21,289 bases of DNA from a virus. Made by a program: the position numbers and the translations under genes. Where the stretch lies: positions 1 through 21,289 of IMG/VR virus record IMGVR_UViG_3300032282_003254, one strand, 5' to 3'. The notes under the pieces were generated by a model that worked only from the letters and a program-made list of their open reading frames with translations, ran no database searches and was not told the origin of the DNA. How positions within the stretch are numbered: position 1 is the first letter of the stretch; each line of letters starts with the position of its first letter. This document shows, piece by piece, positions 10,454-21,289 of the stretch.

Positions 10454-10647
10454 CAGTATTCACCAAAAAGGTCAGGTTCGTCAGGATCTTGCGGGTCGCT
10501 CTCAAGCGCAACCATTTCGTCATAGACCAGCCCCTTGATGAGCTGGCTATAACGGAACTGACTGGCTTCGTCGCTTGGATCTGGATGCGGGATCAAGAAC
10601 GGCGACGGGAAGTTGAGCGTTGAGAATGAGATTTGGATGACCCTCAA
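10453..10647 (-). CDS. 64-aa hypothetical protein with TTG start, before terS
   Basis: TTG at 10647 overlaps the stop of the GapR-like gene (TTGA), with GGAGG 7 bases upstream, so the non-ATG start is well supported. The product is 64 residues: a hydrophobic N-terminal stretch (VIQISFSTLNFPSPFLIP), a helix (FRYSQLIKGLVYDEMVALES) and an acidic tail ending DPDEPDLFGEY. No family is recognised. The stop shares one base with the terS start. Confidence 0.6.
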   Translation of the reverse strand: MRVIQISFSTLNFPSPFLIPHPDPSDEASQFRYSQLIKGLVYDEMVALESDPQDPDEPDLFGEY

Positions 10648-10922
10648 AACTCGGCCTCCGCAGTCGCGGCATAGGCGCCGAGAGGGGTCTTATCGAAGTT
10701 CTCGACCGCGCTCATGTAGAGATCGAAGATCTCCTGCGCCTGAGCGCGCTCGTGCTGGGGCTTCTTGCGCTCCGCGATGACCTTCTTGAGGATCTTCACG
10801 TCGAAGCCGTTGCCCTTCGCTTCCTTGTAAATCTCTGAGATGTCGAGAGAAATCGCTGTTTTCTCGTCTTCCATCTTCTCGATGCGCTGGACGATGGTGG
10901 CGATCTGATTGTTCACGGTCAT
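10644..10922 (-). CDS. GapR-like / DUF2312 nucleoid-associated protein
   Basis: The 92-residue product begins at ATG 10922 behind a strong AGGAGGGG site; a longer open frame upstream runs into the intergenic promoter region and is rejected. Residues show the DUF2312/GapR signature: RIEKMEDEKTAISLDISEIY, KEAKGNGFDVKILKKVI and ERKKPQHERAQAQEIFDLYM. In Caulobacter, GapR binds overtwisted AT-rich DNA ahead of replication and transcription and stimulates topoisomerases. The C-terminal 20 residues (TPLGAYAATAEAEF) are extra to the core. As first gene of the leftward block it would be expressed just before the packaging genes. The family call is firm; the phage role is inference. Confidence 0.88.
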   Translation of the reverse strand: MTVNNQIATIVQRIEKMEDEKTAISLDISEIYKEAKGNGFDVKILKKVIAERKKPQHERAQAQEIFDLYMSAVENFDKTPLGAYAATAEAEF

Positions 10923-11035: not shown

Positions 11036-11110
11036 TTATCCACAGGGGTAAAACGCTATAGACAGGCGAAATTTCTTCGCTTATAAGTTTAATCACGGTC
11101 GCTGATGACC
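11036..11110 (+). promoter_or_regulatory. Regulatory module copy 1 (DnaA-type box, operator, promoter)
   Basis: TTATCCACA at 11036-11044 matches the DnaA-box consensus. A promoter follows: TAGACA 11059-11064, 17-base spacer, TATAAG 11082-11087. The spacer contains the palindrome GCGAA-ATTTC-TTCGC (11066-11080). The leader 11091-11110 is identical over 20 bases to copy 2 and contains GGTC-N6-GACC. Unlike copies 2 and 3, it lacks the upstream 9-bp-arm hairpin. It drives the 11137-11454 gene rightward. Confidence 0.7.
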
Positions 11111-11136
11111 TAATTGATTTGCAGATGGAGACGAAC

Positions 11137-11454
11137 ATGACCAACGCTTTCGCCAACATGATCAGCTACTCTGATGTCACCCCCTTCGAGGTCGTGCGCC
11201 ACGTCAGCGGCAAGACCGCCGACATCCGCGAGATGGACGCTGTGCGCTCGAACCCCGAGAACAAGCTGGGCTTCGCCCCCGGCGGCTTCCTTGGCCACTG
11301 CGCCGATCAGGGCGCCCAGCAGTGGACCATCACTTCGAACCCCGAGAACCGGGTCGTGCGCATCCGCCTCGGCAAGCGCGGCTGGGTCGATAAGTGGGGC
11401 AACCGTTACGACATGTGCGGCAAGCCCCACCGCTTTTACGACTACAACTTCTGA
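11137..11454 (+). CDS. Rightward cassette gene 1, 105-aa hypothetical protein
   Basis: The ATG at 11137 follows GATGGAGACGAAC, giving GGAG at a good distance; two earlier in-frame ATGs lie before or within the ribosome site and are unlikely. The product contains FEVVRHVSGKTADIREMDAV, a repeated SNPEN motif (twice, about 40 residues apart) and a C-terminal RKW-like basic segment (IRLGKRGWVDKWGNRYDMCG). It looks like a small beta-rich soluble protein. No function is recognised. As the first gene after promoter module 1 it should be among the first rightward products. Confidence 0.75.
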   Translation: MTNAFANMISYSDVTPFEVVRHVSGKTADIREMDAVRSNPENKLGFAPGGFLGHCADQGAQQWTITSNPENRVVRIRLGKRGWVDKWGNRYDMCGKPHRFYDYNF

Positions 11455-11458
11455 TCTG

Positions 11459-11481
11459 AGAGGGGGGAAATACCCCCCTCT
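11459..11481 (+). terminator. Hairpin between cassette genes 1 and 2
   Basis: Arms AGAGGGGGG and CCCCCCTCT (9 bp) enclose a 5-base loop, followed by ATTTCCCC, so the T-tract is weak. It could be a partial terminator or an mRNA-stabilising structure directly downstream of the gene 1 stop. Confidence 0.55.
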
Positions 11482-11508
11482 ATTTCCCCTGACCTGATGG
11501 AGATTGAT

Positions 11509-11772
11509 ATGCTCAAGCAGATGAAGACCAAAGACACCGGCCTCCTCGGCATCATGCAGACCGCCGCTTTTTCGACCGGCTTCAAAGAGGCGCAGGCTGG
11601 CAAGCCGATCCGTTATGACGCCTATGAGCACGACGCTAATGGCCAGTGGAACTATGAGCGCGGGCGTCTGCTCGGCCTGATCTTCACCGGCCCCCTGAAG
11701 GTCGGCAGGGCGATCAATCGTGGCGCAGCCATCCAGTTCGCAATGGCGTTTCAACAGAAGATCATCCTGTAA
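11509..11772 (+). CDS. Rightward cassette gene 2, 87-aa hypothetical protein
   Basis: Start is the ATG at 11509, the second ATG of the shared leader GATGGAGATTGATATG; the first ATG overlaps the ribosome site. The product has a helical, mildly basic composition: TAAFSTGFKEAQAGKPIRYD, then WNYERGRLLGLIFTG and RAINRGAAIQFAMAFQ. The spacing of Gly, Trp and Arg (F-x2-GF...W-x2-GR) resembles small ribosome- or nucleic-acid-associated phage proteins, but this is only an impression. The stop is directly followed by regulatory module 2. Confidence 0.72.
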   Translation: MLKQMKTKDTGLLGIMQTAAFSTGFKEAQAGKPIRYDAYEHDANGQWNYERGRLLGLIFTGPLKVGRAINRGAAIQFAMAFQQKIIL

Positions 11773-11778
11773 AAAAAG

Positions 11779-11864
11779 TTATCCACAGGGTGCGAAAATG
11801 CTTCGCACCCCCTTTACAGGCGAAATTTCTTCGTGCTAAGGTTCAATCACGGTCGCTGATGACC
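11779..11864 (+). promoter_or_regulatory. Regulatory module copy 2
   Basis: TTATCCACA at 11779-11787 abuts a perfect 9-bp-arm inverted repeat (GGGTGCGAA / TTCGCACCC, 11788-11810, 5-base loop). The promoter is TTTACA 11813-11818 and TAAGGT 11837-11842 (18-base spacer). The spacer holds GCGAA-N5-TTCGT at 11820-11834, one base off the palindrome of the other copies. The leader 11845-11864 equals that of copy 1. The inverted repeat may also end transcription from gene 2, but no T-run follows. Confidence 0.7.
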
Positions 11865-11883
11865 GCAGCCTCTGGAGCCCGCC

Positions 11884-12162
11884 ATGTGCATCGCCCCCTA
11901 CTACAACACCCCCGACATGACCCAGCCCCGTCTGCTTGGCCAGTTCGACACCGTGTTCGGCGCCCACTTCGAGTTCAGCAATCGCCCCGAGGAGGACCGT
12001 GGCGGCATCTGGCCCGGCTATCCCCATCGCATCTTCACGGTCGATGGCGACCGCGCCGCTCTGGTCCTCAAGACCGTCGCCTACGTCATCATCGACGAGA
12101 ACGAGGACGGCTCGCCGGTCTTCGAGAAGTGGGAAATCAAACGCCACCGCGCCTACGCCTGA
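11884..12162 (+). CDS. Rightward cassette gene 3, 92-aa hypothetical protein
   Basis: The ATG at 11884 follows TGGAG with a 6-base spacer (CCCGCC). The product starts MCIAPYYNTPD and has a compact look: FDTVFGAHFEFSNRPEEDRG, then HRIFTVDGDRAALVLKTVAY and a C-terminal FEKWEIKRHRAYA. Alternating hydrophobic residues suggest a small beta-sheet fold. No family is recognised. It is the first gene after module 2. Confidence 0.72.
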   Translation: MCIAPYYNTPDMTQPRLLGQFDTVFGAHFEFSNRPEEDRGGIWPGYPHRIFTVDGDRAALVLKTVAYVIIDENEDGSPVFEKWEIKRHRAYA

Positions 12163-12166
12163 AAAC

Positions 12167-12182
12167 GGGGGCTTCGGCCCCC
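12167..12182 (+). terminator. GGGGGC-TTCG-GCCCCC hairpin after cassette gene 3
   Basis: A 6-bp GC stem with a stable TTCG tetraloop, four bases after the gene 3 stop. It is followed by TCCCACC rather than a T-run, so it may slow polymerase or protect the mRNA end more than stop transcription. Confidence 0.5.
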
Positions 12183-12210
12183 TCCCACCCTAACCCTGAT
12201 GGAGATTGAC

Positions 12211-12489
12211 ATGGACTTCCGTTTTTACACCCTCGGCGAAAACACCCCCTCCCTCCACTTCTCCGCCACCGGCGTAGATCTGTATGACCAGATGTGCGAG
12301 GCCATCGTCGATCACGTCCTTGGCGCCGACCCCTACTCGGAGGTTGCGGCCCGCGACCTCATGGAGATCGTCGCGATGCAGACGCCTGACGAGGCCGAGT
12401 ATATCGAGGCCGTCTACATTCAAGGTCATCTGGTCGGCTCAATGGACGCCCCCTTCGCGCTGGACCCCAGCGAGTATGTGAAAATCTAA
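12211..12489 (+). CDS. Rightward cassette gene 4, 92-aa acidic hypothetical protein
   Basis: Start is the ATG at 12211 in the shared leader GATGGAGATTGACATG. The 92-residue product is acidic: MDFRFYTLGENTPSLHFSA, then LYDQMCEAIVDHVLGADPYS, AARDLMEIVAMQTPDEAEYI and DAPFALDPSEYVKI. Acidic small proteins of this size in phage early regions often mimic DNA or bind host factors, but nothing here identifies a target. The stop TAA lies inside the sequence leading into module 3. Confidence 0.72.
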   Translation: MDFRFYTLGENTPSLHFSATGVDLYDQMCEAIVDHVLGADPYSEVAARDLMEIVAMQTPDEAEYIEAVYIQGHLVGSMDAPFALDPSEYVKI

Positions 12490-12490
12490 G

Positions 12491-12577
12491 TTATCCACAG
12501 GGTGCGAAAATGCTTCGCACCCTGTTGACAGGCGAAAATAGTTCGCGTAAATTCAAACCACGGTCGAGATAGAGACC
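12491..12577 (+). promoter_or_regulatory. Regulatory module copy 3
   Basis: TTATCCACA at 12491-12499 begins one base after the gene 4 stop. The same 9-bp-arm inverted repeat as in copy 2 lies at 12500-12522. The promoter is the best of the three: TTGACA 12525-12530, 17-base spacer, TAAATT 12548-12553. The spacer carries GCGAA-AATAG-TTCGC (12532-12546). The leader is shared but diverged (CACGGTCGAGATAGAGACC). Confidence 0.72.
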
Positions 12578-12597: not shown

Positions 12598-12897
12598 ATG
12601 ACCGCTTCCAACACCGTCGCCGCCGTCGAAGTCTACCTCGCCGCCAAGGCGCAGTCTGACGCCGCCGAGACCGTTCTCAAGGCCGCCAAGGCCGATGTCG
12701 TCGCCATCGTGGGTGGCTACGGCTTCCTCGAAGGCGAGACCGCCGATCTCGACGTTGCCGTCCAGTCCCGCTCCTCAATCAGCGAGAAGCTCCTGCTTCA
12801 GTTCCTGACGCAGGCACAGATCGACGCCTGCAAGACCGAAGGCGCCGCCTACGCTGTCGTCCGCGTCAAGGCCAAGAAGGTCAAGAAGGCGGCCTAA
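12598..12897 (+). CDS. Rightward cassette gene 5, 99-aa Ala/Lys-rich helical protein
   Basis: Start is the ATG at 12598 in the shared leader; upstream in-frame ATGs lie within the ribosome site. The N-terminal half is a long Ala-rich helix (VEVYLAAKAQSDAAETVLKA). A middle GGYGFLEGETADLDVAVQSR segment follows, and the C-terminus is basic (VRVKAKKVKKAA). The arrangement, a helical N-terminus followed by a short beta region and a Lys-rich tail, suggests nucleic-acid or protein binding. No function is assigned. It is the first gene after module 3, which has the strongest promoter. Confidence 0.75.
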   Translation: MTASNTVAAVEVYLAAKAQSDAAETVLKAAKADVVAIVGGYGFLEGETADLDVAVQSRSSISEKLLLQFLTQAQIDACKTEGAAYAVVRVKAKKVKKAA

Positions 12898-12904
12898 TTC
12901 CTCC

Positions 12905-12928
12905 GGGTAGGAGCATCGGCTCCTACCC
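12905..12928 (+). terminator. 10-bp hairpin between cassette genes 5 and 6
   Basis: Arms GGGTAGGAGC and GCTCCTACCC close a 4-base ATCG loop eight bases after the gene 5 stop. No T-run follows (ACCTACCCC), so full termination is doubtful. Confidence 0.55.
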
Positions 12929-12952
12929 ACCTACCCCTGAAGGAGAATTGAT

Positions 12953-13162
12953 ATGTATTACGTCGTCCCCAAAGACCGCTCCGTCCTCAAGAGCCTCAAG
13001 ACCTTCGAGACCCTTTACGAAGCCCGCCGCTTCGCGGAAGACACCAAGCTGGTGACTAGCGAAAACTATGACGTGATCCGCATGGACCGCGTCTGGACCA
13101 CCCAGACCCTCGACGAGGCCCACCTCGCCTCGCTCGACATCCCCCACATGGCCCGCGATTAA
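12953..13162 (+). CDS. Rightward cassette gene 6, 69-aa hypothetical protein
   Basis: The ATG at 12953 follows AAGGAGAATTGAT, an ideal ribosome site and a variant of the shared leader. The product contains FETLYEARRFAEDTKLVTSE and YDVIRMDRVWTTQTLDEAHL, an alpha/beta pattern typical of small phage proteins. No family is recognised. Confidence 0.7.
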   Translation: MYYVVPKDRSVLKSLKTFETLYEARRFAEDTKLVTSENYDVIRMDRVWTTQTLDEAHLASLDIPHMARD

Positions 13163-13170
13163 TATCCCTC

Positions 13171-13192
13171 GGGGAGGGCTCAGGCTCTCCCC
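13171..13192 (+). terminator. Hairpin between cassette genes 6 and 7
   Basis: Arms GGGGAGGGC and GCTCTCCCC pair over 9 positions, one a G-T pair, around a TCAG loop. It sits nine bases after the gene 6 stop; no T-tract follows. Confidence 0.5.
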
Positions 13193-13215
13193 AGTCCCTT
13201 CCGATGGAGATTGAT

Positions 13216-13419
13216 ATGGCCCACCCCGTCCACACCTCGCTCAACAGGGACGGCACCTTTTCCGTCTACTACTTCGACCGCCTGATCGGATACATCGCCA
13301 AGGGCTCCATGAAGGCCAAGGGCAAGCCAATCTGGCGGGCGCTGTCAGTACACGGCGACTTGCGCCACGCCCACTCACAGGCCTCCGCAAGGGCCGCGCT
13401 ACTGGAGATGCACCATTGA
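13216..13419 (+). CDS. Rightward cassette gene 7, 67-aa hypothetical protein
   Basis: Start is the ATG at 13216 in the shared leader GATGGAGATTGATATG. The product has a short beta-like opening (HTSLNRDGTFSVYYFDRLIG) and a basic, His-rich second half (RHAHSQASARAALLEMHH). No family is recognised. The stop overlaps the TTG start of the helix-turn-helix gene as TTGA, so the two are probably co-translated. Confidence 0.68.
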   Translation: MAHPVHTSLNRDGTFSVYYFDRLIGYIAKGSMKAKGKPIWRALSVHGDLRHAHSQASARAALLEMHH

Positions 13420-13634
13420 CCCCCGACAGGCTCAAAGAAACAATGACCAAGCTCGACTTCACGTCCGCAGACGTTGCCACCGTCACCGGCGTAACGCGCC
13501 GCACTGTCCAGCTCTGGATGGCCGGGGCTCCCATCCCCCTGTCCGCATGGATTTTGCTGGAGGGCATCCTTGAGGGCCTGCTCCCAATGGAGTGGGTCGA
13601 GGACAAGATCGTCCTCGCATTGCGAATTAACTGA
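13416..13634 (+). CDS. Small helix-turn-helix DNA-binding protein
   Basis: TTG at 13416 overlaps the previous stop and follows GGAG by 8 bases; an ATG at 13443 would give a protein nine residues shorter with a weaker ribosome site. From TTG the product is 72 residues. SADVATVTGVTRRTVQLWMA is a clear helix-turn-helix: two helices with a VTGVT turn and a recognition helix RRTVQLW. The remainder (PLSAWILLEGILEGL) resembles the helical dimer part of Cro/YdaS-type regulators. It is the only obvious DNA-binding regulator in the rightward cassette and so the leading candidate, by position, to bind the palindromes of the promoter modules. That link is inference. Confidence 0.75.
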   Translation: MTPDRLKETMTKLDFTSADVATVTGVTRRTVQLWMAGAPIPLSAWILLEGILEGLLPMEWVEDKIVLALRIN

Positions 13635-15629: not shown

Positions 15630-15650
15630 TTCTCCCGCACGTCTTATCTT

Positions 15651-15689
15651 GCGGAACCCGCGCGGAGCGAAAGCGCAGCGCGGTTCCGC
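15651..15689. repeat. Large GC-rich inverted repeat
   Basis: GCGGAACC-C-GCGC pairs with GCGCGGTTCCGC with one bulged C, around an inner GCG-AAA-GCG. The arms contain TGCGGA-type sequence related to the array further right. No T-run follows on either side. Confidence 0.65.
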
Positions 15690-15770
15690 GCCCATCCCCA
15701 ATGTCCGGTCTCTTAGAGGGGGTCGCGAAGCGCACCCCTAGACCCTCCATTGACCCTTGCGGAACTCACA

Positions 15771-15810
15771 CCCCGCCGAAGCGGGGGGTGTTAATGTAAT
15801 ACATTACACC
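15771..15810. repeat. Two adjoining inverted repeats
   Basis: CCCCGC-CGAA-GCGGGG (15771-15786) is a perfect 6-bp tetraloop hairpin. It is followed by an AT-rich inverted repeat centred on TAATGT-AAT-ACATTA, extended by GGTG / CACC with one bulged base. An AT-rich palindrome next to a GC clamp is a plausible protein-binding or melting site. Confidence 0.55.
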
Positions 15811-15826
15811 CCAACTCCACGCACAA

Positions 15827-15932
15827 CCTCCGCAAGTTTTTTTCAGTTTGCGGAGGAAGTGCGGAGGTTATGCGGAGGATGTCCATTTTCTCCCGGTTTT
15901 CTGGGCTTTTCAACCTCCGCATTTCCTCCGCA
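15827..15932. repeat. Array of six TGCGGAGG octamers, partly 11-bp phased
   Basis: Forward copies start at 15849, 15860 and 15871, exactly 11 bp apart. Reverse copies (CCTCCGCA) start at 15827, 15914 and 15925, the last two again 11 bp apart. A degenerate reverse copy precedes the first by 11 bp. The first pair forms a hairpin with 9-bp arms. A 35-base pyrimidine-rich spacer separates the forward and reverse groups. The same octamer occurs a few times singly elsewhere in the window (for example 10655 and 13382), as expected for GC-rich DNA, but never clustered. Confidence 0.75.
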
Positions 15933-15936
15933 ACGC

Positions 15937-16161
15937 CTATTCCCCGTTCCAAGCCCTTTTTGTGTCGTCGGGGTGATATTCGGGGGTGTAGTGCTGCATC
16001 CAAGAGGGGACTTTCTTCGCAAAATTCTCCACCGGATGCCAAACCAATTTGTAGCCTTCTGGGGCGGTCAGGGAGTAGTTCTCAATGACCATGCAGGGTA
16101 TCCACAGCCCCTTCATCAGGCGAGCCTTCCAGCGGCGCTTGGAGACCTGTTTGAGGCGCAT
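15937..16161 (-). CDS. 74-aa basic hypothetical protein
   Basis: Its ATG shares one base with the stop of the Tat-signal gene, and AAGGA lies upstream. The N-terminus is strongly basic (MRLKQVSKRRWKARLMKGLW), followed by an aromatic and Pro-rich part (APEGYKLVWHPVENFAKKVP). No family is recognised. Its stop lies four bases from the TGCGGAGG array, so the array starts where coding ends. Confidence 0.62.
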   Translation of the reverse strand: MRLKQVSKRRWKARLMKGLWIPCMVIENYSLTAPEGYKLVWHPVENFAKKVPSWMQHYTPEYHPDDTKRAWNGE

Positions 16162-18506: not shown

Positions 18507-20642
18507 CTAGTCGATTGATCCGATTACCTTAAGGCCTTGCATCTTCGTGTTCTTGTCCACGACCTCATAGGACAGAACTTGGTTGGAGAGCCACGTCTCC
18601 ACCATCATATCGACCAGCTTTTCAGGCAGATCGAATTGCTGACCCAGCACCGAGGCGGCGTAGCGCCCCTGCTTGCGGGTCTGGGAATAGCTTGAGAGCG
18701 GGCGCCCCGAGAACCAAGCCACCCGGATCACGTTGAGCATGTCGCGGCAGACCGCCTTCTCAGGCCAGACGCTCTTGGGCGCCGCCTTCTCGTTCGCCTG
18801 CGCGGCGTAAAGACTGCCCTCGCCGGTGATGTCATTGACGACGACCTTCTTCAATTCGAAGGGCAGGCGCCAGCCATCTTCGGCGCTCTTGATCTTGCGG
18901 GCGTGGATCTCGCCAATGCTCTCGCCCTCCTCGCGCTCAATGCCGAGCAGAAAGTCACCGGCGCCGTCGAAGACGGTCGAGCCGCGTAGGTTGCCCGCCC
19001 GGCTCGTGTGGTGGACGCCGACGACCGTGGCGCCAAAGGTCGTGCGGACGGCGTCGCAGGCGCCAATGAACAGGGTCATGTCCTTCTGGAGGTTCTCGTC
19101 GGCGCCCGGCAGGACGCGGCTGACCGTGTCCACGAAGACCGTGACCGGCATCTCCCCGGCGGCCTTGCCAATCGCGGCCACGGTACGCAGGAGGCGCTCT
19201 ACGTCCGCCTGCGCCATGAAGTTGATCGTTTGCTGGATCAGGTAGAAGGGCAGGCCGCGCACCTTGACGCCAGCCTCCTTCTCCCACGCGAGGATGCGGT
19301 TGCCGATGTCGCCCACGCCCTCTGACGAGATGTAGACGACAGGGCCGGTCTTGTTGATCTTGCGCCCGAACCAGTCAGGGCGCTCCGAACAGATCGACAG
19401 GCCCATGCCGATGGTGATGAAGCTCTTGCCGCATCCCGGAGGCCCGTAGACGAAGCCGAGCGCGGTTTCGATCATCAGCTTGTCGATCAGGTACTTGGGC
19501 TTGGGAAGGGACAGGATGCCCTCCACGTCGAGGAACTCAAATAGATCAACGGTCGTTGGCTTAACGACATCAATGAACAGCTCGCCCGTCTCCTCATCGA
19601 CCTTGTAGAACTTGACCGGCTGCGGCTCATCGGCCTGATCGAAAGGGCGGCTGGGGCGCTCCACCTTCGCATGCTCTGCGACCTTGCCGTCCCACTGCTC
19701 AATGGCGTTCTGCCACTTGTGCTTGAACATCGAGATGCCGCGACCCTCGCGCTCCAGAAGATCTGCGTTCGAGACGCCGGGCGTCGGCTGGATGCGGCTC
19801 TTCACCTTGCGCTCATAGGTGGCGAAGCTTTCGAGCATGTGCTTCTCGGACAAAGCCCCCAGATCTCCGGGGCATTCTCTCTTCAGATCCACGACCGCAG
19901 CCCAGACCAACTTGGTCATGTAGTCCTCGCGGCCATCGACAATATTTCCAAAGTTATCCACAGCTTTATTTGGTGATGCAGTTTTTTCGCCTGTCAAACG
20001 ATTTCCACCAGACGAGCCGCCATGCTCGATGGCGAGCTGAGTGATCTGGTCACAGAACCATTGTGGCGCTGTGGCGATCTCCATTTCCCACGGCTCGTGG
20101 CCCTCCTTCCAGCGATAGGACTTGCCGCTCTCGTGGGTGCTGGGCGGCATCATGGCGAAGCCACCCTGCCCCCGGATGTCCACCCCGATGCTTGTCTTGC
20201 ATGTAGGGGGAACCCAGCCCAGAGGGGCGCGGAAGAAGAGCTGGACGCCCCCGCCGCCGGTGGCCTGCTCGACCGTGTCCAGCTCACCGGCGCCCTGTTT
20301 CATGTGAAACATGTCGTCCCACCACGCCTGCGCACGGACATCCTTGTGCAGATCCAGATCGACGACGAAGATCCCGTTCGAGCAGGCGCCTGCGATCAGG
20401 CCCATGTTGTTGCGGCGGGCATGCTCCCCATCCTCGCCATACCAACGCTCGAAGGTGAAGTCGGGGATGATCTCGTTTTCCAGCTCGCGCCACTTCGGGA
20501 GGGCGGGGCGCTTCCACTGGTTCCGGTTTTCCTTGTGGCTCATGGCCGGAACGACCTGCATTCCAGCTTTACGATACATGCGAGCCCATTCAGTAGGGTC
20601 CGCAAAGTCAGGGTCGAAGGATTGCATAGCGGTCATTTTCAT
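18507..20642 (-). CDS. Prim-Pol primase fused to RecA-like (RepA-type) helicase
   Basis: This 711-residue replication protein has two parts. The N-terminal bifunctional primase-polymerase domain (about 15-200) shows GLIAGACSNGIFVVDLDLH with Asp95 and Asp97 as likely metal ligands, GGGGVQLFFR, and VDIRGQGGFAMMPPS with Asp155. The C-terminal RepA/AAA_25-type helicase domain (about 385-610) has Walker A YGPPGCGKS (399-407), Walker B VFVDT with Asp505, and GVHHTSRAGNLRGSTVFDGA. A helical tail follows. It should unwind DNA and lay primers at the phage fork. The start is uncertain among three close Met codons (20642, 20636, 20627). It lies 18 bases downstream of the sigma-like gene. A DnaA-box-like sequence lies inside the coding region. 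Confidence 0.9.
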   Translation of the reverse strand: MKMTAMQSFDPDFADPTEWARMYRKAGMQVVPAMSHKENRNQWKRPALPKWRELENEIIPDFTFERWYGEDGEHARRNNMGLIAGACSNGIFVVDLDLHKDVRAQAWWDDMFHMKQGAGELDTVEQATGGGGVQLFFRAPLGWVPPTCKTSIGVDIRGQGGFAMMPPSTHESGKSYRWKEGHEPWEMEIATAPQWFCDQITQLAIEHGGSSGGNRLTGEKTASPNKAVDNFGNIVDGREDYMTKLVWAAVVDLKRECPGDLGALSEKHMLESFATYERKVKSRIQPTPGVSNADLLEREGRGISMFKHKWQNAIEQWDGKVAEHAKVERPSRPFDQADEPQPVKFYKVDEETGELFIDVVKPTTVDLFEFLDVEGILSLPKPKYLIDKLMIETALGFVYGPPGCGKSFITIGMGLSICSERPDWFGRKINKTGPVVYISSEGVGDIGNRILAWEKEAGVKVRGLPFYLIQQTINFMAQADVERLLRTVAAIGKAAGEMPVTVFVDTVSRVLPGADENLQKDMTLFIGACDAVRTTFGATVVGVHHTSRAGNLRGSTVFDGAGDFLLGIEREEGESIGEIHARKIKSAEDGWRLPFELKKVVVNDITGEGSLYAAQANEKAAPKSVWPEKAVCRDMLNVIRVAWFSGRPLSSYSQTRKQGRYAASVLGQQFDLPEKLVDMMVETWLSNQVLSYEVVDKNTKMQGLKVIGSID
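19954..19997. promoter_or_regulatory. DnaA-box-like site plus inverted promoter element inside the primase gene
   Basis: TTATCCACA at 19954-19962 matches the boxes of the three regulatory modules. Twenty-one bases on, the minus strand reads TTGACAGGCGAAAA (19984-19997), 14 bases identical to module 3 but in opposite orientation. No good -10 follows at 17 bases, so it may be a binding site and not a promoter. Confidence 0.45.
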
Positions 20643-20660: not shown

Positions 20661-21289
20661 TTAGATCTTCATCGAATTTTGCGCGAGGTCCATTTGACCT
20701 ATTTCCTCAAGGTAGCCGCGAAGGTTCTTCGTGCGCGCCGGATGCCTGAGCTTCCGAAGGGCGTCATTCTCAATCTTGCGGATATTCTCTCTGGTGCATT
20801 TGTATGAGGCGGCAACATCCTCAAGCGTATGCTCGGCCTCGCCATTAAGGCCGAAACGCTTGATGATTATGTCTCTCTCGCGTTCCGTGAGGTCATCGAC
20901 AGCATTGTTGAGGGCGCTGCTGATTTCCTTTGCGAGGAAAGCGTTCTCAGGAGAAGCCGCCAAGCTGCGGATTGAATGAGAAATCTGCTGAACATCAATG
21001 GCATCAGCCAGAAGCGTCGCCCTTGTCTTACGCATTGGAATACGCAAGTGAGCAGCCGGGAAAATGTCTTCAACAGAGCAATGCAAAGCATCTACGATCT
21101 GCGCAACATACCTTTTATAAAAACCATCGACGCCAATAGGAGCCCCCTTTAGCGAGCAATATCTCACCAGAGTTCCGTAGGGGATGCCGGTTTTCTGAGA
21201 GAAATCCAGCACGCTATCATACCCGCAGGCCTCAATCCTGCTAAGGAGAAGGTTGTTCCTAACTTTGATCTCAATACGATAATCTTTCA
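20661..21289 (-). CDS. XRE-type domain fused to sigma-70 region 4, start codon cut by window edge
   Basis: The frame is open to the last base. The codon at the edge reads NTG followed by KDYRIEIKVRNNLLLSRIEA, the likely true N-terminus, so only one base is probably missing and the protein is about 209 residues. The internal GTG at 21212 would lose this conserved part. Residues about 10-85 (CGYDSVLDFSQKTGIPYGTL, then AQIVDALHCSVEDIFP) form an XRE-like helix-turn-helix region. The later part (DDLTERERDIIIKRFGLNGE, then RENIRKIENDALRKLRHP) is sigma-70 region 4, which reads -35 elements. Region 2 is absent, so it cannot work as a complete sigma factor. It probably controls early transcription together with host RNA polymerase, which is inference. 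Confidence 0.82.
   Translation of the reverse strand, partial: KDYRIEIKVRNNLLLSRIEACGYDSVLDFSQKTGIPYGTLVRYCSLKGAPIGVDGFYKRYVAQIVDALHCSVEDIFPAAHLRIPMRKTRATLLADAIDVQQISHSIRSLAASPENAFLAKEISSALNNAVDDLTERERDIIIKRFGLNGEAEHTLEDVAASYKCTRENIRKIENDALRKLRHPARTKNLRGYLEEIGQMDLAQNSMKI

Follow-up and report, generated by a model that had tools for sequence, protein, structure and literature searches.

In lambda and 434, more than one early promoter carries the palindromic OL/OR operators, which bind a small HTH protein expressed from one of these promoters. The Aca autorepressors, among them Aca2 of Pectobacterium phage ZF40 and Aca1 of JBD30, are encoded by a small HTH gene placed distally, after tiny genes, in operons with consensus-like early promoters (PMC9410906, PMC8434428). 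In the Aca families the core promoter invariably contains an inverted repeat, IR1, and in some cases a second, IR2, lies outside it; known acr genes accompany only 15% of Aca-like homologues (PMC9410906). The acrIF8-aca2 promoter of ZF40 (JQ177065) reads TTGCTT-[GTTCGC GATT GCGAAC]A-TATAAT and has a further repeat in its leader. In archaeal rudiviruses with Aca8, many small fast-evolving genes each stand behind a common strong-promoter element, which is also carried by the Aca-type gene; shut-off soon after infection has been inferred, and the element has been used to find anti-defence genes (PMC11065993). Phage-wide short repeats near small genes are also known from mycobacteriophages, as the SAS/ESAS of Cluster K, whose ESAS inverted repeats vary by subcluster, and the 17-bp palindromes of Cluster O, whose sites have dyad symmetry (PMC3203893, PMC4351075). 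In Cluster A, one regulator acts on many stoperators, and the site motif co-varies with the repressor (PMC6550527).

Here, a 21,289-bp linear IMG/VR virus record from an uncultured phage, a fragment of a genome and hereafter the window, was analyzed. It carries genes for a terminase, a portal, a GapR homologue, a cytosine methyltransferase and a primase/helicase. An earlier note on this DNA had described three copies of a regulatory module (11036-11110, 11779-11864 and 12491-12577), all of which were found (Table 1). The 20 leader bases said to be identical in copies 1 and 2 number exactly 20 (AATCACGGTCGCTGATGACC), and the 9-bp-arm inverted repeat described as optional (GGGTGCGAA-aatgc-TTCGCACCC) is present in copies 2 and 3 only. 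A 58-nt block is 90% identical between copies 2 and 3, and a 49-nt block 86% identical between copies 1 and 2; TTATCCACAGG has three perfect occurrences in the window, against a chance expectation of 0.17 even with one mismatch permitted. A strict sigma70 consensus scan was passed by copy 3 only (for the -35 hexamers of copies 1 and 2, see Table 1). Overlooked in the note was a palindrome, CGAA-N5-TTCG, found between the -35 and -10 elements of every copy.

Table 1. Features of the module region in the window; promoters, operators and hairpins are predicted.
Feature	Position	Strand	Remarks
Module 1 DnaA-box 9-mer TTATCCACA	11036-11044	+	preceded by A/T-rich tract AAATTATTTTTGAAAAAAG
Module 1 promoter	11059-11087	+	TAGACA 11059-11064; 17-bp spacer; TATAAG 11082-11087
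Module 1 spacer operator CGAA-ATTTC-TTCG	11067-11079	+	
Module 1 leader hairpin GGTC-GCTGAT-GACC	11097-11110	+	expected transcript 5' end; covariation in relatives
g1, 105 aa, no known function	11137-11454	+	homologues in Roseobacter, Pseudomonas and Yersinia phages
g2, 87 aa, no known function	11509-11772	+	in 18 module-bearing loci
Module 2 DnaA-box 9-mer TTATCCACA	11779-11787	+	
Module 2 upstream operator/hairpin O1, GGGTGCGAA-AATGC-TTCGCACCC	11788-11810	+	core CGAA-N5-TTCG; spacer operator 28 bp downstream
Module 2 promoter	11813-11841	+	TTTACA 11813-11818; weak -10 CTAAGG 11836-11841 (TAAGGT one base on)
Module 2 spacer operator CGAA-ATTTC-TTCG	11821-11833	+	
Module 2 leader hairpin GGTC-GCTGAT-GACC	11851-11864	+	
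g3, 92 aa, no known function	11884-12162	+	
g4, 92 aa, no known function	12211-12489	+	
Module 3 DnaA-box 9-mer TTATCCACA	12491-12499	+	
Module 3 upstream operator/hairpin O1	12500-12522	+	identical to that of module 2
Module 3 promoter	12525-12553	+	TTGACA 12525-12530; TAAATT 12548-12553
Module 3 spacer operator CGAA-AATAG-TTCG	12533-12545	+	
Module 3 leader hairpin GGTC-GAGATAGA-GACC	12562-12577	+	identical stem, 8-nt loop
g5, 99 aa, no known function	12598-12897	+	cluster in 30 loci
g6, 69 aa, no known function	12953-13162	+	
g7, 67 aa, no known function	13216-13419	+	adjoins HTH72 in relatives
HTH72, 72-aa Cro/XRE-like protein	13416-13634	+	TTG start; internal ATG 13443
Last cassette gene, 118 aa	13646-14002	+	no homologue found in related loci

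Three further features of the window were recorded. Divergent from module 1, positions 10644-10922 encode a GapR-like DNA-binding protein (Pfam E 1e-23) with homologues in 45 loci. Beside a divergent operon, at 15640-15940, TGCGGAGGTT-like units recur in either direction over about 300 bp, forming a candidate origin of replication or array of operators. At 20661-21287, cut by the window end, an N-terminal HTH-like segment is fused to sigma-70 region 4, a combination seen in only five other loci.

The placement of the palindrome recalls the Aca operons, which likewise combine consensus-like early promoters with an inverted repeat in the -35/-10 spacer and sometimes a second one outside. The window contains 10 GCGAA-N5-TTCGC sites that are perfect or deviate by one base, versus 1.5 expected. 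The layout of the ZF40 promoter matches that of the modules: its IR1 occupies the -35/-10 interval and shares the GCGAA half-site, and its leader also contains an inverted repeat; however, the half-sites are reversed, GCGAA-N5-TTCGC here as against TTCGC-N4-GCGAA there.

No near-nucleotide relatives of the window were found in the phage collection, and related loci were gathered by protein searches of viral contigs (80 primase loci and 80 neighbour-gene loci; the whole set comprised about 170 loci). The repeats that the earlier note had singled out are conserved in these relatives: modules of the window and of its relatives were confirmed as real and conserved across many phages, at 2-6 copies per genome, a close relative record of 61.7 kb (G003) containing four. 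A motif scan of viral contigs returned six stretches on five contigs. When only a fixed geometry was accepted (-35 hexamer, N2, any tetramer, N5 and the reverse complement of the tetramer, recurring within the locus), CGAA-N5-TTCG was found at least twice per locus in 20 loci, and the sole other recurrent tetramers were TGAA (L060) and a chance-looking ATCT (L053). Ninety-six modules with fixed placement, up to six per locus, were collected in 37 loci using a limited list of half-site types and requiring a ribosome-binding site for all; single hits in this set from L078, L166 and L169 may be due to chance. The best -10 element lay at a distance of 17 bp in 58 of the 96 and of 18 bp in 21.

Between clades the half-sites differ symmetrically (TGAA/TTCA, TGCA/TGCA, AGAA/TTCT, GGGC/GCCC), as expected for a dimeric reader protein; in a sister group, GGGC-N5-GCCC occupies a slightly shifted position. 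The centre and flanks of the spacer diverge, and CGAA/TTCG and its spacing stay constant down to about 50% primase identity. Only the strict geometry was counted because looser palindrome scans have a high background: with variable gap and offset, background was as high as signal and control hexamers matched equally often. Among loci devoid of CGAA sites, no recurrent operator was found in the L030/L032-type relatives, a set of many phages that do have an HTH72 homologue, which counts against the mechanism favored below. Judged from these sequence comparisons, it is close to certain that the modules represent conserved promoters under joint control, each with a dimeric operator. The proposal that one signal switches several transcripts together is thus upheld as the best reading of a common signal standing before several transcripts of tiny genes in many phages. 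In the sister phages L056, L062, L066, L067 and L076, the spacer of up to six promoters holds (A)GGGC-N5-GCCC(T); these promoters are found on either strand, some of them at a distance from the cassette, and the phages also have a second HTH paralogue.

The 9-bp-arm repeat, here named O1, includes a CGAA-N5-TTCG core matching the spacer operator, and looks like a second operator. A perfect upstream CGAA-N5-TTCG was present in 22 of the 74 CGAA/TGAA-type modules, where 0.04 would be expected; its distance to the spacer site is mostly 28-29 bp, and 21 of these 22 modules are internal. In the window, O1 comes immediately after the upstream gene, a location at which other cassette genes carry a strong gene-end hairpin. 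Occupying the usual site of this G+C-rich hairpin, O1 may possibly have a double role, as operator and gene-end hairpin. That O1 is an ordinary terminator was rejected, since it has no T-run and L009 and L089 lose the G+C-rich outer stem and keep CGAA-N5-TTCG. Strong G+C-rich hairpins, also free of a T-run, were seen right after four cassette genes (11455-11490, 12163-12190, 12898-12930 and 13163-13200).

The GGTC...GACC leader noted earlier is present in all three modules, and is best read as a 5'-terminal RNA hairpin whose stem pairing is kept by compensatory changes. A 5'-proximal stem of at least 4 pairs was found in 69 of 86 distinct leaders, versus 28.6 expected from shuffles, the stems being built from several unrelated sequences (GGTC/GACC, GGTT/AACC, CCGC/GCGG, GTCAGC/GCTGGC and TCAGC/GCTGA). 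The variable loop length and the wholesale replacement of stems fit RNA better than DNA, and on these grounds GGTC...GACC was rejected as a DNA operator. The folding energy of single leaders was unremarkable (z 0-1), the hairpin being supported by comparison among relatives, and an Rfam scan gave no match above the gathering score.

A candidate reader of the operator is encoded within the cassette. The gene for HTH72 lies distal in the operon of module 3, after g5-g6-g7, an order repeated in relatives and comparable to that of aca genes after tiny genes; tblastn or profile searches detected homologues in nearly all module-bearing loci that extend far enough to include this distal position in the operon of the last module. 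Being located in that operon, HTH72 would control itself. Its AlphaFold2 model (pLDDT 92) has five helices (3-13, 17-24, 28-35, 42-52 and 58-71), with R28-R29-T30-V31-Q32-L33-W34 as the recognition helix. The nearest solved structures include Aca10, Aca2, HigA2, Aca1 and 434 Cro, with VIA-align Z scores of 8.9 for Aca10 (rmsd 1.1, 53 aligned) and 8.7 for Aca2 (rmsd 3.0, 64 aligned). Both the predicted fold and the recognition helix are similar to those of Aca1 and Aca2; the top PDB match of the HTH72 profile was Aca2, a weak one (E 0.012; helix RSWQYWESGRSAVP in Aca2 versus RAVQLWASGKSPVP), and a shared fold alone is no proof of membership in an Aca family.

The residue at position 32 of HTH72 homologues was compared with the operator. 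All CGAA clades have Q, E or D at this position, and the remaining clades Y, H, N, R or S: Y with TGAA/TGCA, H with AGAA, N with AGAA/GGAA and R with GGGC. The L155 homologue, for instance, has Y32 and a TGCA operator. Counted by sequence clusters, CGAA was present in 7 of 8 with Q/E/D versus 0 of 7 with another residue (Fisher p = 0.0014), an association confounded by phylogeny and drawn from a module set gathered with a limited half-site list. As a prediction, L134, with Q at residue 32, was a partial success, its two sites being CGAA/TGAA hybrids. Isolated phages of alphaproteobacteria and Aeromonas also encode HTH72-like proteins, but inspection by eye revealed no such promoter there. HTH72 likely reads the spacer operator.

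With respect to the known systems, the locus differs from Aca operons in that no known acr gene was found, a single regulator seems to act on 2-6 separate promoters, the leader hairpin is unlike the operator in sequence, and HTH72 falls below threshold for every curated family (none of the curated models passed the cut-off, Pfam HTH_3 scoring 16.5 bits versus 23). The system would work in the manner of the Aca and rudivirus circuits; lacking a known acr gene, and with membership by sequence unproven, it was not classed as an Aca member. The rudivirus elements also precede small fast-evolving genes, but with archaeal TATA/BRE promoters and mostly single genes, in contrast to the sigma70-type promoters and operons of one to five genes found here, and an explicit palindromic operator and a leader hairpin are features of the present modules. 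Likeness to lambda and 434 lies in palindromic operators common to several promoters, with a small HTH protein encoded behind one of them as the likely reader, and in the fold match to 434 Cro; here, however, there are more promoters, the operator is uniformly in the spacer, and no lysogeny module was found, with no integrase above cut-off in the 15 records searched, including the 61.7-kb G003 (the window itself is a fragment). Whereas SAS lies at the ribosome-binding site, and the Cluster O sites are more than 30, scattered and partly inside genes, the present palindrome is locked in the promoter spacer. Stoperators, which share with it the one regulator and many sites, are asymmetric and scattered; these sites are symmetric and confined to promoters.

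The mechanism that we favor, and consider probable, is that an autoregulating Aca-like repressor, HTH72, shuts off several early promoters at once. The three modules would be promoters of one phage regulon, each with the 17-bp spacer of a sigma70-type promoter occupied by the palindromic operator CGAA-N5-TTCG, and the internal ones with a second operator copy 28-29 bp upstream. Host RNA polymerase would transcribe the small genes, most likely early, a timing suggested by the sigma70-type promoters and the Aca/Cro-like circuit. The last transcript would also encode the Cro/XRE-fold protein HTH72, dimers of which, as they accumulate, would occupy the operators in the spacers, obstructing RNA polymerase at every promoter simultaneously, that of HTH72 included. 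This early shut-off would be autoregulatory as with Aca proteins or Cro, spread over several operons, and the hairpin at the transcript start would probably stabilize the mRNA or provide a second, post-transcriptional control. That HTH72 acts as a repressor of these promoters is probable from the architecture and the relatives.

It is unlikely that the operator, though real, has a different reader, either a host LexA-type repressor or the phage HTH-sigma-region-4 fusion protein (20661-21287). Gram-positive LexA boxes, CGAAC-N4-GTTCG, are superficially alike, but the gap here is 5 rather than 6 and the inner C/G is absent, and a LexA-type box was rejected for its wrong gap. The fusion protein does contain sigma region 4; its sigma domain, however, went undetected in the 61.7-kb relative, which has four modules, and in most others searched, and since it was not found in module-bearing relatives the fusion was rejected as the reader. 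Moreover, operator letters vary between related phages together with HTH72, against both candidates.

Quite unlikely, too, is that HTH72 or another phage protein is an activator that switches the cassette on from the spacer palindrome. Some -10 elements are weak, as that of module 2 (CTAAGG), and MerR-type activators bind palindromes in promoter spacers. MerR promoters, however, typically have spacers of 19-20, as opposed to 17 in most modules; the -35 hexamers are near consensus, the regulator gene sits within its own regulon, and the nearest structural relatives of HTH72 (Aca1/2/10, HigA2 and 434 Cro) are repressors (PMC9410906).

Host DnaA was considered as the governing factor, TTATCCACA boxes tying the cassette to DnaA level or replication state, a decidedly unlikely reading. 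The exact 9-mer lies upstream of 25 of the 28 modules of the closest clade, and in the 61.7-kb relative its sole occurrences are those at the four modules and a single one within the primase gene; the distances from box to -35 of 14, 25 and 35 bp fit one-turn steps, yet 30-31 also occurs. Outside the closest clade, however, only 7 of 68 modules (6/44 and 1/24) have the box, and the operator, promoter and leader persist. As a general core signal the box was consequently rejected: by its distribution it is a clade-specific addition, and DnaA at best an added input. Of the composite motif proposed earlier, the common signal stands, but its core would be the palindromic spacer operator and not a composite with the DnaA box. 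The A/T-rich tract AAATTATTTTTGAAAAAAG is kept in first modules of close relatives. A fourth, partial look-alike, which the earlier note did not list, lies within the primase gene (- strand, 19951-19997) and combines TTGACAGGCGAAAAAACTGCATC...AATAAAGC with the DnaA box TGTGGATAA. When the gene was compared in nine phages, two of its three longest runs of synonymously invariant codons fell there, and in the 61.7-kb relative this is the site of the one TTATCCACA that lies outside the modules. It was rejected as a fourth promoter, being coding sequence with no acceptable -10. Finally, it is most improbable that the repeats reflect only the recent duplication of a strong promoter, without common regulation. 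Copies are more alike within than between genomes (L028, L071), but CGAA/TTCG and its spacing are fixed where the spacer centre and flanks diverge, and half-sites co-vary symmetrically.

The genes placed behind these promoters are highly variable: 252 cassette genes fall into 90 clusters, 54 of them single, and the stable members are g5, g2, g7 and HTH72. Gene g5 is the first after the last module in most relatives; its structure model was of low confidence, too poor for a structure search, and neither g5 nor its neighbour gene matched any of 50,697 deposited phage records. Several cassette genes are preceded by a recurring ribosome-binding block, GATGGAGATTGATATG. In L158 and L160 the first gene after the module (at -2190 and -2211, respectively) encodes ArdC (ArdcN E 2.5e-40), and in L112 a C5 cytosine methyltransferase is encoded within a module-headed operon. 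No window gene had a recognized anti-defence function, and there was no recognized Acr among the cassette proteins. It is plausible that the cassettes form an early or anti-defence regulon, an anti-defence role of their genes being a reasonable guess only. More tentatively, and rather doubtfully, these loci may constitute an undescribed family of phage anti-defence or takeover regulons, with an Aca-like autorepressor obeying a readable helix-to-operator code, 2-6 plug-in promoter cassettes whose genes are rapidly exchanged, and the conserved 5' RNA hairpin as a second control layer, perhaps bound by the HTH protein; Aca2 reportedly binds RNA.

If the repressor reading is right, the common operator marks a co-regulated, fast-evolving gene set in an uncultured phage group. 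The many small genes of its 90 clusters would be worth screening for anti-defence functions, one relative's cassette gene being ArdC. The HTH72 homologues would provide a natural series in which operator letters shift with one helix position, and the recognition code, if true, would be directly testable.
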